57,059 nucleotides of DNA from NCBI GenBank assembly GCA_036004685.1, contig DASYRE010000009.1, positions 1 through 57,059 on the forward strand. Direction: 5' to 3'. The notes beneath the pieces were generated by a model. The model did not search any database and was not told where the DNA came from. It saw only the letters and a list, made by a program, of their open reading frames with translations. How positions within the stretch are numbered: position 1 is the first letter of the stretch; each line of letters starts with the position of its first letter. The position numbers were made by a program, and so were the translations under genes. Origin of the DNA: Candidatus Polarisedimenticolia bacterium (GTDB lineage Bacteria; Acidobacteriota; Polarisedimenticolia; Gp22-AA2; AA152). This document shows, in pieces, positions 12,232 through 46,352 of the stretch.

Positions 12232-12954
12232 ATGAACCGTACGTCGGGAATCCGCATCACCTGGCTCGGCCATTCCACCTTCAAGATCCGGTCGGCCCGG
12301 GGGAAGATCGTCCTCATCGACCCCTGGCTGGCCAACAATCCTTCCTGTCCCGGTCCTCTGAAGACTCTCGAGCAAATCGATTTGATGCTGCTCACCCATG
12401 GGCACTTCGATCACTTCGAGGACGCCGTCGCCCTGGGACGATCCCTGCGCCCCCGGATCGTGGCCAATTTCGAGATCTGCGCGTTCCTGGAAGCCCAGGG
12501 GATCTCCGGCGCCTGCGCCATGAACAAAGGAGGCACTCAGACGGTCGACGGGATGCGCGTGACGATGGTGCCCGCCGCGCATACCAGCAGCATCGCCTGG
12601 AACGGCCAGATCCTCCCCGGCGGCGAGGCGTGCGGCTATATCGTGGAGTTCGAGGACGGATTCAAGATCTACGAGGCGGGGGACACGGCTGTGTTCGGCG
12701 ACATGAAGCTCCTCGCCGAGCTCTATCGGCCTGACCTGACGCTGCTGCCGATCGGCGACCTGTTCACGATGGGGCCGAAGGAGGCGGCGCTCGCCTGCCG
12801 CCTGATGCGCCCGCGGCGCGTGATTCCGAAACACTACGGGACCTTCCCGGCGCTGACCGGCACGCCGGCCGACCTGCGCGCCCTCACCTCGGAGATTCCG
12901 GAGATGGAGATCGTCGAGCTGAAGCCCGGCGGGAGCTGGGAGCTCAGCGCCTGA
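12232..12954 (+). CDS. UPF0173-type metallo-beta-lactamase-fold hydrolase
   Basis: A cytoplasmic metal-dependent hydrolase of the UlaG/UPF0173 branch of the metallo-beta-lactamase fold. In 240 residues it shows WLGHSTFKI, the zinc motif THGHFDHF (about residues 55-62), then PAAHTSS, EAGDTAVFGDMK (bridging Asp) and IPKHYGTFPAL (final His). The length is normal for the family. The substrate of this family is not established. Its 3' end overlaps the convergent nucleotidyltransferase-like gene by 11 bp. Confidence 0.9.
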   Translation: MNRTSGIRITWLGHSTFKIRSARGKIVLIDPWLANNPSCPGPLKTLEQIDLMLLTHGHFDHFEDAVALGRSLRPRIVANFEICAFLEAQGISGACAMNKGGTQTVDGMRVTMVPAAHTSSIAWNGQILPGGEACGYIVEFEDGFKIYEAGDTAVFGDMKLLAELYRPDLTLLPIGDLFTMGPKEAALACRLMRPRRVIPKHYGTFPALTGTPADLRALTSEIPEMEIVELKPGGSWELSA

Positions 12955-14056
12955 CGCCGGGCCGGGCGGCGCGGACTTTCTCCACCGCCGCGGCATCGCC
13001 GGCGCCCGCCGGAGTCCCCCGCAGGAGCCCGAGAGCGCGTCCGACGCGGGAGACGGAGTGTGCCGCGACGTAGCGCGCCGCGTCGCTCCAGCGATCCAGC
13101 AGCGCCATGCTGACGGCGTGGCGGGCGGCGCTTCCCGCCAGGGCGCGATGCGGCAGAATCGGGTTCGCGGTGCCGACGCCCCGGAGGATCGCGCGGCGCG
13201 CCGGCGAGAGCGTGAAGCGGCGGGCCGGCGGCGGGACTGTTCCCGGATAGATCTTCTCCACGTACTGCAGGCTGTAAGCCACACAGTTCGCCACTCCCCA
13301 GGCGCGCGCCGTCTTCCGGAGCCGCTCCCAATCCAGATTGCCGCGCTGCAAGAGGCGCCGCAGATCCTCGGTCCACAGGAGCGCCGGATCGGCATGGTGG
13401 TGCGCCAGGTGGGTGGCCAGATGCAGGAGCAGATGGTCGTCACATAGCCGAAGGAACCGCTGCCCTTCGATCTCGCACGGCACGGCGTCGCGAATCAGCT
13501 CGTCGGGATCGATGCGGCTACGCTCCACCGACTCCAGGTTCCAATGGAACTCCACGTAGCAGGACGGCGGGCCCGGAGTCTCGACGAGCTGGTGGTACCA
13601 TCGTTCCCGGTAGTAGCGCTCCTCCTCGTCGCTCGGAAGGCGGCAGCCGCGAGCCCCCAGCGTCTCGGCCACTTTCGGCCAATCCTTCTCCCGGATCAGC
13701 AGGTCGAGATCGGTCATCGGCCGCAGATGGATCTCGGGATACAGAAAGCTCAGGAGGCTTACCCCCTTGAGCAGCACGAATCCCGTCCCTTCCTCGGCGA
13801 GGGCCGAGGCCACCTCGCGCAGCGCCCGCAGAAGGACGAGGTTGTCCACCAGAGTCTTTCGCGACGCTTCCTTCAGGCCCGGAAGAAGGTCCGCGGGGAC
13901 GGCATCCGGCTGCCGCGCGGCCGCCTGAAAAACCAGCGGCCCGACGCGATGCCGGCGGCAAAGCTCGAGAAACGAGGCCGGCGGCGACAGACTGGGCGCC
14001 GGCCTTTCTCCTCGGAGGAAGGCGAGCAGGAGTCTCTCGGTGGCGAAGGAATCCAT
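12944..14056 (-). CDS. nucleotidyltransferase-like protein (NTP_transf_5 family)
   Basis: A 370-residue member of the uncharacterised nucleotidyltransferase family, often found near surface polysaccharide genes. The core shows FVLLKGVSLLSFLYPE (about residues 93-108) followed by RPMTDLDLLI, whose Asp-x-Asp is the expected metal pair. Later come YVEFHWNLES and a His-rich helix (DDHLLLHLATHLAHHH). The acceptor is unknown. Next to a glycosyltransferase operon on the other strand. Promoter at 14106-14135. Confidence 0.82.
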   Translation of the reverse strand: MDSFATERLLLAFLRGERPAPSLSPPASFLELCRRHRVGPLVFQAAARQPDAVPADLLPGLKEASRKTLVDNLVLLRALREVASALAEEGTGFVLLKGVSLLSFLYPEIHLRPMTDLDLLIREKDWPKVAETLGARGCRLPSDEEERYYRERWYHQLVETPGPPSCYVEFHWNLESVERSRIDPDELIRDAVPCEIEGQRFLRLCDDHLLLHLATHLAHHHADPALLWTEDLRRLLQRGNLDWERLRKTARAWGVANCVAYSLQYVEKIYPGTVPPPARRFTLSPARRAILRGVGTANPILPHRALAGSAARHAVSMALLDRWSDAARYVAAHSVSRVGRALGLLRGTPAGAGDAAAVEKVRAARPGVRR

Positions 14057-14262: not shown

Positions 14263-15150
14263 ATGCCCACTCTCAGCGTCGTCGTGGCGACGCGGAACCG
14301 CAAGGACGAGGTGATCGATCTCCTGTCGGACCTGGCGCGCCTCTCCTGGCGCGCCGGGGACGAGATCGCGGTCGTCGACAACGGCTCGACCGACGGCACG
14401 GCGGCGCGCCTGCGGCGGAGCTTCCCGCGCGCCCTCGTCCTGCCTTTCCCCGAGAACCGCGGCGCTCCCGCCGCCCGCAACGCCGGCGCGGCGGCGACCC
14501 GGGGCGAGATCCTCGTCTTCCTGGACGATGACTGCCGGGTGGAGGATCCCGAATTCCTCGATCGCGTCCGCCGCGCTTTCCTGGAAACGCCGGAGGCCGG
14601 GGCGATCGCGTTTCGCATCCTCGATCCCGTCACCCGGCGGCCGCGCTCCTTCGAGGTCCCGCGGCGGCGCAAGGATCTGGCGATGGAGCCCTGCGAGACC
14701 TCCTACTTCATCTCGGCCGGCTGCGCCGTCCGCCGGAAGGTCTTCGACGCCGCCGGCGGGATGGACCCGTCGCTGACATACGGATTCGAGGAGCTCGATT
14801 TCTGTTATCGGGCCGTCATCCGGGGCTTCCGCATCTTCTACCGGCCCGACATCGTCGTTCTGCACCGCCTCTCCCGCGCCGGGCGCCCGGCGTGGCGGAG
14901 AACCTATTTCTTTTATCGCAACAAGATCTGGATCAGCGCGCGCTATCTCCCGTGGACGATGTTCCTCTCCCAGATGGCGCTCTGGAGCGGCTATTTTCTC
15001 AAGGAAGCGCTGTCGATCGGGCGTCCCGATGTCTTTCTGGCCGCGCTGGCCTCGGGACTCGCGGGAATCCGGCGCCGCCGGCGCGAGGATAGGATTCCGC
15101 CCCAGGTCCTGATGCGACTCCGGGAGATCGAAGGGAGGCTCTATTACTAG
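14263..15150 (+). CDS. family 2 glycosyltransferase
   Basis: An inverting GT-A-fold glycosyltransferase that would use a nucleotide sugar to extend a surface glycan. The 295-residue protein has the family start SVVVATRNRKDEV, then VVDNGSTDGTAARL, ENRGAPAARNAGAA and the metal-binding FLDDDCR (Asp near residue 88). The acceptor region GGMDPSLTYGFEELDFCYRA and a hydrophobic C-terminal stretch follow. The frame is open upstream to 14146, but similarity starts at MPTLSVVV, so ATG 14263 is used. First gene of a four-gene operon; its last codons overlap the start of the M24 peptidase. Confidence 0.93.
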   Translation: MPTLSVVVATRNRKDEVIDLLSDLARLSWRAGDEIAVVDNGSTDGTAARLRRSFPRALVLPFPENRGAPAARNAGAAATRGEILVFLDDDCRVEDPEFLDRVRRAFLETPEAGAIAFRILDPVTRRPRSFEVPRRRKDLAMEPCETSYFISAGCAVRRKVFDAAGGMDPSLTYGFEELDFCYRAVIRGFRIFYRPDIVVLHRLSRAGRPAWRRTYFFYRNKIWISARYLPWTMFLSQMALWSGYFLKEALSIGRPDVFLAALASGLAGIRRRRREDRIPPQVLMRLREIEGRLYY

Positions 15151-16285
15151 GGGTCCGCGGCACGGCGCCCGGGCGATCGCGGGCGTCTCCCAGTCGAACG
15201 GCGACCTCCTGCATGCTTCCGGCTATCCCTGCGCCGATCCGACCGCCTGGTTCCAGATCGGCGGGCGCACCCACCTCCTGGTGAACGATCTCGAATTTCA
15301 AGGGGCCCGCGAGCTCTCCCGGGCACGCGTCGTACTTCCCCTCTCCCGTTACTATCGCGGCCTCCAGAAGGAGGGGATCGCCTCACCCGATTTCTTCCAG
15401 GCTCTCGCCGCGGCCCTCGCCGAGCGCGGCGTCCGAGCGGTCCGGATCCCCGAGTCGTTCCCCGCCGGGGGCGTGGCCCGTCTCGGCGAGCGGGGCATCC
15501 GGACGCGCGTCCTTCCCGATCCCTTCCTGCCCGAGCGGGCCCGCAAGACGCCGGCCGAGGTCCGGTCGATCCGCCAGGCCCTGCGCGCGGCGGAGGCCGG
15601 GATGGCCACCGCCATCCTGACTCTCGCGGCGAGCCGGATCGGCCGCGACGGCTATCTTCACCTTGCGGGAAGGCGGCTGACCTCGGAAGCGCTGCGCGAC
15701 GGCGCCGAGCGGGCCATCTTCGCCGCCGGGGCGGCGCCGTTTCAGACGATCGTCGCGGGCGGCATCCAGGGATCGGACCCGCACGAGAAAGGGACGGGGC
15801 CTCTGCCGGCGCACCGCCCCATCGTCCTCGATTTCTTCCCGCGCTCGAGGCGATCCGGGTTCCATGGCGACATCACGCGCACCGTGGTGAAGGGCCGCGC
15901 CGACGCCAGGACCCGGGCCGCCTTTCTCGCCGTGGCCGCCGCCCAGAGGCTGGCCCTGGCGATGCTCCGGGCCGGAACGGACGGCGCCCGGATCCACCGC
16001 CGCGTCTGCGAATTCTTCACGCGGGCCGGTTTCGCCAACCGCGGCCGGGGCGCGGCGCGCGAAGGGTTCATTCACGGCACCGGTCACGGCCTCGGCCTCG
16101 ACCTCCACGAGTTCCCTCCCGTCAGCGCCCGGAAGTGCCGGCTCGAGGCGGGGCAGGTCGTCACGATCGAGCCCGGGCTCTATTACCGCGACCTCGGCGG
16201 AATCCGCATCGAGGACGTGGCCCTGGTGACCCGGCGGGGTCACCTCCGGCTCACCCGCTTCCCCATTTTTCTGGAGATTCCCTGA
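15143..16285 (+). CDS. M24-family peptidase (Xaa-Pro aminopeptidase-like), apparent ATT start
   Basis: A pita-bread-fold metallopeptidase likely to remove N-terminal residues preceding proline. Metal ligands are visible in VLDFFPRSRRSGFHGDITRT (two Asp), FIHGTGHGLGLDLHE (His), VTIEPGLYYRDLG (Glu) and GIRIEDVALV (Glu). The first ATG/GTG of the frame is GTG 15281. However, the family's N-terminal lobe clearly extends upstream (GDLLHASGYPCADPTAWFQIGG), and no ATG, GTG or TTG exists between the frame's stop at 15110 and that point. ATT 15143 lies 4 nt after AAGGGAGG (15131-15138) and overlaps the end of the glycosyltransferase gene by 8 bp. It is therefore the best start. A sequencing error or frameshift is the alternative. 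Confidence 0.85.
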   Translation: MTRGPRHGARAIAGVSQSNGDLLHASGYPCADPTAWFQIGGRTHLLVNDLEFQGARELSRARVVLPLSRYYRGLQKEGIASPDFFQALAAALAERGVRAVRIPESFPAGGVARLGERGIRTRVLPDPFLPERARKTPAEVRSIRQALRAAEAGMATAILTLAASRIGRDGYLHLAGRRLTSEALRDGAERAIFAAGAAPFQTIVAGGIQGSDPHEKGTGPLPAHRPIVLDFFPRSRRSGFHGDITRTVVKGRADARTRAAFLAVAAAQRLALAMLRAGTDGARIHRRVCEFFTRAGFANRGRGAAREGFIHGTGHGLGLDLHEFPPVSARKCRLEAGQVVTIEPGLYYRDLGGIRIEDVALVTRRGHLRLTRFPIFLEIP

Positions 16286-16611
16286 TGCAGGAGCTGGACA
16301 CCGGTTTCGAGAAGCTGATCCTCGTCTGCCTGAACGAGCGCACCGATGGGCGGGAGAGCTGCCTGCCGCGCGGCTCCGCCGAGGTCCTCGCGCGCTTGAA
16401 GGGCTGGGTCAAGGAGCACGGGCTGGCGCGGCGCGTCCGGGTCTCCAAATCGGGCTGCCTCGACCAGTGCTCCCGCGGGACGACGGTGGTGGTCCTGCCG
16501 GAGTTCTGCTGGTATGGTGGAGTGACCGTGCACGACGTCGACCGCATCCTATCCCGGCATCTTTCGGAGATGATCTCCCCCGCGGCGGGGGACAAGAAGG
16601 AGCCTGCCTGA
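16285..16611 (+). CDS. thioredoxin-like [2Fe-2S] ferredoxin
   Basis: A small electron carrier of the thioredoxin-like 2Fe-2S ferredoxin family. The 108-residue protein keeps the four cluster cysteines at residues 15, 26, 58 and 62 (LVCLNER, ESCLPRG, SGCLDQCSRG). The strand VVVLPEFCWYGGV and an acidic/helical C-terminus follow. ATG 16285 overlaps the TGA of the M24 peptidase (TGATG). The next gene starts 1 bp after its stop. The redox partner is not evident. Confidence 0.9.
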   Translation: MQELDTGFEKLILVCLNERTDGRESCLPRGSAEVLARLKGWVKEHGLARRVRVSKSGCLDQCSRGTTVVVLPEFCWYGGVTVHDVDRILSRHLSEMISPAAGDKKEPA

Positions 16612-44951: not shown

Positions 44952-46127
44952 TCAGCTGGACAGGATGGGGGTGATCCGATCCTGCACCGAGGTGGTCACT
45001 TCCGCGCCGTTTCCGGATATATAGAGGTTGACCTCGCTGCGGATGCCGTATTCGGGAAGGTAGATCCCCGGCTCGATGGTGAATCCCGTCCCCGGAATGA
45101 GGCGCCGCTCGTCGCGCGTCTCGAGATTGTCGAGGTGCGCCCCGTTGCCGTGGACCTCGCGCCCGACGTTGTGCCCCGTGCGATGGATGAAGAACCGTTC
45201 GTAGCCCCGGTCGCGGATGAAGGCGCGCGCCACGTCGTCGACGTCGCACCCCCGCAAAAGCCCCCCTTCCTTCGATCCCTCCAGCACGTGGCGGATCGCC
45301 GCGTCTCGGGCCCCGGCCACCGCCTGCCAGACGTCGTCGTAGCGTCCGGGGACGCTCTTGCCGACGAAGCCCATCCAGGTGATGTCGGCGTAGACCGCCT
45401 CCGAGCCCTTTTCCCGGCACCAGAGATCCAGCAGCAGGAGGTCGCCGCTCCGGATCGCGGCGCTGTGCTGCGCGGACGGCTCGTAGTGGGGATTTCCGGC
45501 GTTGGCGTTGACCGCCACGATGGGCGGCTCCGTGACCAGATCCCGCTCCCGGAAAGCCTCCGTCATGAACTGCTGAATCTCGTATTCCGTCGGGGTCCGT
45601 CCTCCCCCGACGATCCGGGCCACCTCGCCGAAGGTGCGCACGACGATCTCGTCCAGGTGCCGGGCGGCCCGCCGGTGCGAGGCGAGCGCCCCGGGACTCC
45701 AGCGCGCCTCGAAGAACTGGACGAGGTCGGCCGAGGTCACGACTTCCACGCCGCAGGCGCGCACCATCTCGAACGTCCCGGCGTCGACCCGCGAGACGTA
45801 CGGGATCGCCCCGCCCGGGGAGTATTCCATGGCGATCCGCTTCCTCCCGCCGACGAGCTCCCTGAGCTTCTCCTCGAGCTGGCGCCATCCCACGTACGAG
45901 ATCTTCGTTCCCGGCAACTCGGCGAAAGCCTGCCCCTCGATGGCGCTGTGGAGCCAGACCGGATCGCCCTGGACCGGCAGGAGGCCGAACCACCGCCGCG
46001 TGATCATGTGACCTGCGGCGAGGCCGGCCACTCGAGAGGCGATCGGGTTGATCCCGTGGAAATCGAACAGCAGCCACGCGTCCAGCTCGGCTTGAGTGAG
46101 CGCCTTCTGGATCTCGGAAACGTTCAT
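44952..46127 (-). CDS. M24-family peptidase (Xaa-Pro dipeptidase-like)
   Basis: A 391-residue creatinase/prolidase-fold protein. The metal ligands are visible in LLLLDLWCREKGSEAVYADITWMG (two Asp), FIHRTGHNVGREVHG (His), TIEPGIYLPEYG (Glu) and IRSEVNLYI (Glu). A 150-residue N-terminal lobe precedes them. Start chosen at ATG 46127 (MNVSEIQKAL) with GGGGGAA upstream; ATG 46148 is the alternative. Cytoplasmic, likely in proline-peptide turnover. It is the second M24 enzyme of the window and only distantly related to the one at 15143-16285. Confidence 0.92.
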   Translation of the reverse strand: MNVSEIQKALTQAELDAWLLFDFHGINPIASRVAGLAAGHMITRRWFGLLPVQGDPVWLHSAIEGQAFAELPGTKISYVGWRQLEEKLRELVGGRKRIAMEYSPGGAIPYVSRVDAGTFEMVRACGVEVVTSADLVQFFEARWSPGALASHRRAARHLDEIVVRTFGEVARIVGGGRTPTEYEIQQFMTEAFRERDLVTEPPIVAVNANAGNPHYEPSAQHSAAIRSGDLLLLDLWCREKGSEAVYADITWMGFVGKSVPGRYDDVWQAVAGARDAAIRHVLEGSKEGGLLRGCDVDDVARAFIRDRGYERFFIHRTGHNVGREVHGNGAHLDNLETRDERRLIPGTGFTIEPGIYLPEYGIRSEVNLYISGNGAEVTTSVQDRITPILSS

Positions 46128-46352
46128 CGGAGTTCCCCCATGCGTCACGACGGATGGCCCTATCTTAGCACCGGGCCCCGCCGGACCCTTGAAGAATATG
46201 ACGCCCCGCCAGCTCCCGGCGTCTTGCTCCCATCATATTATTAGCAAGCTCGCAGCCCGGGGAAACCACGCGGGCGGGGCAGACTCCGCGGGCGATTTCA
46301 CGGTATAGTGAGCCGGCGCGGGATGGCGACCGCCTTCACGGAGACTCGCAGC

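Follow-up and report, generated by a model that had tools for sequence, protein, structure and literature searches.

Where does the translation of a gene begin, when its frame has none of the usual start codons in the place where one is expected? The question is raised by a gene coding for an M24 metallopeptidase (prolidase or Xaa-Pro aminopeptidase-like), found on the plus strand of the window, as we call the whole stretch of 57,059 nt which we have analyzed. The frame of this gene extends from 15113 to 16285, it is preceded by a TGA at 15110–15112 and ends with its own stop at 16283–16285. No ATG, GTG or TTG is found in the frame between this TGA and a GTG at 15281–15283, which is its earliest canonical codon and the start reported by a standard list of open reading frames. 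A previous sequence-only reading had noticed the lack of a usual start back to the stop of the frame, and had proposed that translation begins with the ATT at 15143, located 4 nt from AAGGGAGG and making an overlap of 8 nt with the preceding gene. All these coordinates are correct. Starting from this ATT, the gene (15143–16285) codes for 380 amino acids.

We have found ATT 15143 to be the best-supported start, and two observations which might have spoken against it, the codon of the relatives and the GTG as a start, have come out otherwise. The M24 peptidase gene is probably translated from AUU 15143, which would be a coupled and inefficient start.

The protein and its N-terminal lobe

The protein contains an M24 catalytic domain (Pfam PF00557, E 5.6e-40). 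Its structure was modelled with AlphaFold2, from an alignment in which the window is joined by 52 of the at least 80 homologous loci (53 rows). The mean pLDDT of the model is 96.1, poor prediction being confined to residues 1–5. When residues are numbered from the ATT, the GTG at 15281 corresponds to residue 47. Ordered structure appears in the model from residue 9: there are three strands (residues 9–15, 33–39 and 42–47) and a helix (20–26) before or at residue 47. The best fold match in the PDB is the prolidase 1pv9 (E 8.9e-29, TM-score 0.78 by query). The model aligns with prolidases over approximately its whole length, including the N-terminal lobe which precedes the catalytic domain. All 53 rows of the alignment share D230, D243, H315, E343 and E357, which we take to be the five M24 metal ligands D-D-H-E-E.

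The sequence-only reading had also claimed that homology extends upstream of the GTG. This is borne out by two genomes of the same family but another genus, G003 and G001, whose matches (60 and 61% identity) span residues 4–390 of the open frame, and by the order seen in the model. For three genome pairs we have compared the 36 codons which lead up to the GTG, and have counted 8/7/17, 11/7/22 and 15/12/16 differences at codon positions 1/2/3. An excess at the third position is found in two of these pairs, so a constraint at the protein level is clear in two comparisons. Judging from the sequences and the model, the M24 protein would really begin upstream of GTG 15281. The frame, the homologues and the model agree that a canonical start is absent at its true N-terminus.

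The ATT codon, the Shine-Dalgarno site and the neighbouring genes

The preceding gene (14263–15150, plus strand) codes for a family 2 glycosyltransferase (Pfam PF00535, E 5.4e-24), which ends with the stop TAG at 15148–15150. G003 and G001 have this gene in the corresponding position, with 67 and 64% identity. Its last codons are GAA GGG AGG CTC TAT TAC TAG and the tail of the protein is IEGRLYY. The Shine-Dalgarno sequence AAGGGAGG (15131–15138, plus strand) lies inside the codons GAA GGG AGG, and the proposed start codon ATT (15143–15145) follows at a workable distance. This ATT is the sole AUN codon which the Shine-Dalgarno site can reach ahead of the first ordered strand. The 3' end of the 16S RNA of the window's genome, read in L128, is GGATCACCTCC. 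Its pairing with the Shine-Dalgarno site amounts to -11.6 kcal/mol in the window; with this same tail, the values are -11.6 kcal/mol for G001 and -8.7 kcal/mol for G003.

The codons GAA GGG AGR for E-G-R are kept in all three genomes compared (the window's, G003 and G001). Based on the codon use of the two genes, the chance of finding them is 0.6, 1.7 and 0.5% across the three genomes, which are related, so these values must not be multiplied as if they were independent. Among the 157 glycosyltransferase columns which are identical in amino acid and open to synonymous variation, the codon is kept in all three genomes at 49. A kept Shine-Dalgarno site would be the natural reading of the conserved GAA GGG AGR. 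In the window no canonical triplet is found within its range, so only a non-canonical start is left for it to serve. In no frame does a canonical triplet follow until +65, counted from where the TAG begins.

The presence of the ATT is not in itself beyond chance, since the LYY* tail yields an A-Y-T codon twice in the M24 frame. A tail of the form CTN TAY TAY TAR can only give the codon types TNT, AYT, AYT and ARN in this frame, and ATT is the sole AUN among them. The chance of at least one ATT from two tyrosine codons is about 40 to 85%, for a share of TAT from 0.24 to 10/16. We have therefore not let the mere presence of ATT count as evidence, and the case for an ATT start rests on the exclusion of alternative starts. 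Of five distant homologues of the glycosyltransferase, one (L165, with 30% identity) has EGRIWY* as its end, and the other four end differently. This resemblance to IEGRLYY* suggests that the tail which supplies the Shine-Dalgarno site and the ATT is partly a feature of the protein. In L165 the tail codons are GAG GGG CGC and no M24 gene was seen downstream.

On the other side, the M24 gene is followed by a gene for a small protein containing cysteines (16285–16611, plus strand), which starts with ATG and has a sub-threshold match to Pfam DUF1636 (E 0.0038). The M24 stop and this start share TGATG at 16283–16287, an overlap of 1 nt (-1) which is kept in G003 and G001. Divergent from the glycosyltransferase lies a gene for an NTP_transf_5 nucleotidyltransferase (12944–14056, minus strand, E 3.3e-53). 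The window contains a second M24 peptidase gene (44952–46232, minus strand, PF00557, E 8.6e-37), and the whole genome has four M24 matches.

Start codons in relatives and homologues

A search with an alignment as query gave at least 80 homologous loci; a scan of genome contigs with the single protein gave no relative. Matches were found in 4 of 41 genomes of the class and in 6 of 396 genomes of the phylum, the window's own genome being included in both cases. We have aligned 84 homologues together and read off their codons upstream of the anchor DLLYATG. Four of these rows were left out: L066 is truncated, L035 is a duplicate of L006, and L089 and L100 are mis-anchored, although a Met before the anchor can be seen by eye in both. 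Among the matches listed, 79 of the 80 readable rows have a canonical start between -34 and -12 from the anchor, and the exception is the window. The best candidates in these 79 rows are ATG (64), GTG (13) and TTG (2). The ATT of the window is located at -20, where several homologues have ATG. TTG is the likely start in G014, a genome of the same class whose match in the M24 frame has 46% identity, and in two further members of the phylum.

The closest comparison is given by G003 and G001; no M24 homologue was found in G002, the third genome of the family. Both relatives have the same junction between glycosyltransferase and M24 gene, with the IEGRLYY tail and a Shine-Dalgarno site, GAAGGGAGA in G003 and GAAGGGAGG in G001. 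The sequence-only reading had suggested looking at the start codon of close relatives, where a normal ATG would point to a local sequence error. Neither genome has such an ATG, nor a GTG or TTG, at the position of the window's ATT or at the next codon. Both have an ATT one codon later, 7 nt from the Shine-Dalgarno site, which forms the sequence ATTAA and a -5 overlap. An ATT is thus found in two of two homologues of the same family, at a shifted codon, and each of them also has canonical codons elsewhere. G001 has a TTG at -29, which begins before the Shine-Dalgarno site and is preceded, at 4 nt, by a GAGG of its own, while its first canonical triplet in any frame after the stop is 41 bases from the first base of the stop. 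In G003 the canonical codons are a TTG (-18) and an ATG (-13), located well downstream of the Shine-Dalgarno site. The relatives support a common junction; given these codons, an ATT start in the whole family would be likely at most.

We have also scanned the window's genome for further coupled ATT genes, using two patterns. GGAGGN{3,9}ATTRA gave 23 matches, compared with 10 in a reversed control, and GGAGGN{3,9}ATTNNTRA gave 10, compared with 2. Both patterns cover the stops TAA and TGA, which leaves ATTAG and the window's own ATTACTAG outside them. The 33 matches were judged by the length of the open frame, third-position GC, canonical codons and translations, 24 of them from the table only. 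The downstream frames of the other nine were scanned with Pfam, and none had a domain. No convincing pair was found among the matches to these two patterns, so an ATT start is not a habit of this genome, in which the M24 case looks isolated.

Codons of a similar kind are seen in the start region of infC. In G004 there is no ATG, GTG or TTG between the stop of the frame and the IF3 domain, and the apparent start is ATC (L119). In G007 and G014 (L120 and L124) this ATC recurs, preceded by a GTG at a distance of 9 and 3 codons, respectively. G001, G003 and the window's genome (L121, L122 and L123) have ATT or ATC there and also an ATG five codons upstream, so the autoregulation of IF3 through its start codon may be different in the window's family.

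Alternative explanations

The alternative which survives best is a start at another near-cognate codon nearby, either AGG 15149 or ATC 15176. We consider it unlikely, although it has some points in its favour. AGG 15149 differs from ATG by a single base and is located 10 nt from the Shine-Dalgarno site, within range, but we know of no precedent for AGG as a natural start codon. The position of ATC 15176 is occupied by ATG in G003 and by ATT in G001, and in the alignment of 53 rows, 45 of which have a letter there, it corresponds to Met in 10 and to Ile in 30. On the other hand, this codon is residue 12, inside the strand 9–15, so that its Ile is explained as a conserved residue of the strand. 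It has no Shine-Dalgarno site near it, and the Ala and Arg which come just before are invariant in four genomes.

The window's genome is a draft in 62 contigs, and an error in the assembly, or a variant of the strain, might have changed a normal start into ATT. The two other genomes of the family argue against this: they have the same Shine-Dalgarno site and lack a canonical codon at the ATT or its neighbour, which rules out a simple one-base local error in the window. An error or variant of any kind appears quite improbable.

An even less probable explanation is that no start is needed, the peptidase being fused to the glycosyltransferase by a programmed +1 frameshift in the overlap, for example at GGG AGG. 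Over the 36 nt which lead up to the end of the glycosyltransferase frame the M24 frame is also open, all three genomes share GGG AGR, and AGR codons are only 10.5% of the arginine codons of the window. But the same bases make a perfectly placed Shine-Dalgarno site, which is a simpler account, and the Tyr codon ahead of the stop re-pairs poorly in the +1 frame. Frameshifts of the prfB type have a slippery sense codon right before an in-frame stop and a Shine-Dalgarno site 3 nt upstream; here the codon before TAG or TAA is a TAY, and the Shine-Dalgarno site is 6 nt before it. The other homologues we have examined have different preceding genes or their own starts, and no fusion of glycosyltransferase and M24 peptidase was seen among them.

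Finally, a start at GTG 15281, the first canonical codon and one which the sequence-only reading had named as a start that would refute its proposal, can practically be discarded: the resulting protein of 334 residues would begin inside the strand 42–47 of the model and would lose most of this strand, together with the helix and the other two strands, which are conserved in the family.

A proposed coupled AUU start

With translation beginning at AUU 15143, we propose the following sequence of events. Translation of the glycosyltransferase would end at the UAG at 15148–15150, and the strong Shine-Dalgarno site in its last codons would hold the ribosome or recruit one. This ribosome would then initiate, with initiator tRNA, at the AUU which opens the 8-nt overlap. 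Such a weak codon would set a low yield of peptidase relative to glycosyltransferase, and the strong Shine-Dalgarno site would offset part of this loss. The initiation factor IF3 represses non-canonical starts (PMC5472188), so the M24 start may be expected to be sensitive to it. We infer all these features, AUU use, coupling, low yield and repression by IF3, from the sequence. Nothing we have seen suggests any action of the M24 peptidase on the codon from which it starts.

This proposal might be extended to the family, somewhat tentatively: the phase of the overlap would bar the closest NTG starts, and AUU would be used in their place, in two genomes as a -5 overlap with ATTAA and in the window as a -8 overlap, with the output under the control of IF3. 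If true, it would provide a natural case, supported by sequence, of a -5 overlap made by ATT, which has so far been suggested only as a possibility.

AUU starts are rare and are already known from a handful of bacterial genes. The present one does not alone make any long-standing question newly answerable. Standard gene callers accept only ATG, GTG and TTG, and as a result the enzyme would come out 46 residues short in an annotation, without the beginning of its N-terminal lobe. If the AUU is used, the gene of a metabolic enzyme from a little-studied phylum joins the short list of AUU starts. The locus would also be a concrete pair in which to test ATT in -5 and -8 overlaps, where NTG starts are barred or costly.

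Comparison with known systems

In the literature on near-cognate starts with coupling, and on misannotated non-canonical starts with IF3, we have found no report which combines these features. No ATT-started M24 gene was found in the start-codon literature, which was searched without using M24 by name. Several known systems share some of the features.

The infC gene starts with ATT in E. coli and with ATC in Streptomyces (PMC5472188). Like the M24 gene, it has a non-canonical AUN start with a Shine-Dalgarno site. It is autoregulated because its product is IF3 itself (PMC5472188), which senses the start codon. The M24 product has no such role, and the ATT of its gene, unlike that of infC, overlaps a preceding gene. 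The E. coli gene pcnB, as cited in PMC13009471, is limited in its translation by AUU, and resembles our case in being an enzyme gene with an inefficient AUU start. The sequence-only reading had described ATT starts as autoregulatory, with infC and pcnB as examples. This holds for infC; pcnB is described as limited by its AUU, not autoregulated, and an autoregulation of the infC type is unsupported for the M24 gene.

A further parallel is cvfC1 of S. aureus, which has AUU with an extended Shine-Dalgarno site, conserved among staphylococci (PMC13009471). As in the M24 gene, a strong Shine-Dalgarno site is paired with a weak AUU. The cvfC1 start was found from its Shine-Dalgarno site, conservation and initiation profiling (PMC13009471), so it has been shown experimentally; it also differs in belonging to the first gene of an operon, which is hence uncoupled. 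According to the same source, a strong Shine-Dalgarno site compensates partly at AUU and AUA starts in S. aureus (PMC13009471).

In Streptomyces, sigR has a GTC start repressed by IF3, a regulation which has been demonstrated (PMC5472188). It resembles the M24 gene in that annotation overlooked its non-canonical start and in that genes of its operon overlap. The differences are the codon, GTC, and the overlap, which is formed by the downstream partner and not by the gene with the weak start.

Coupled gene pairs favour overlaps of -4, -1 and -8 (PMC10666635). The -5 overlap is more than 1,000-fold rarer than -4 and is practically closed to NTG starts. ATT could make such overlaps as ATTGA, ATTAG or ATTAA, which is mentioned as a possible origin of the rare -5 annotations; ATT is put at about 0.3% of ATG in E. 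coli, a value of Hecht 2017 quoted in the same paper (PMC10666635). Where it deals with these phase 1 overlaps, this source raises ATT as a possibility rather than examining a case. The locus described here is a concrete gene pair in this phase: G003 and G001 have exactly the ATTAA form (-5), and the window has the -8 form.
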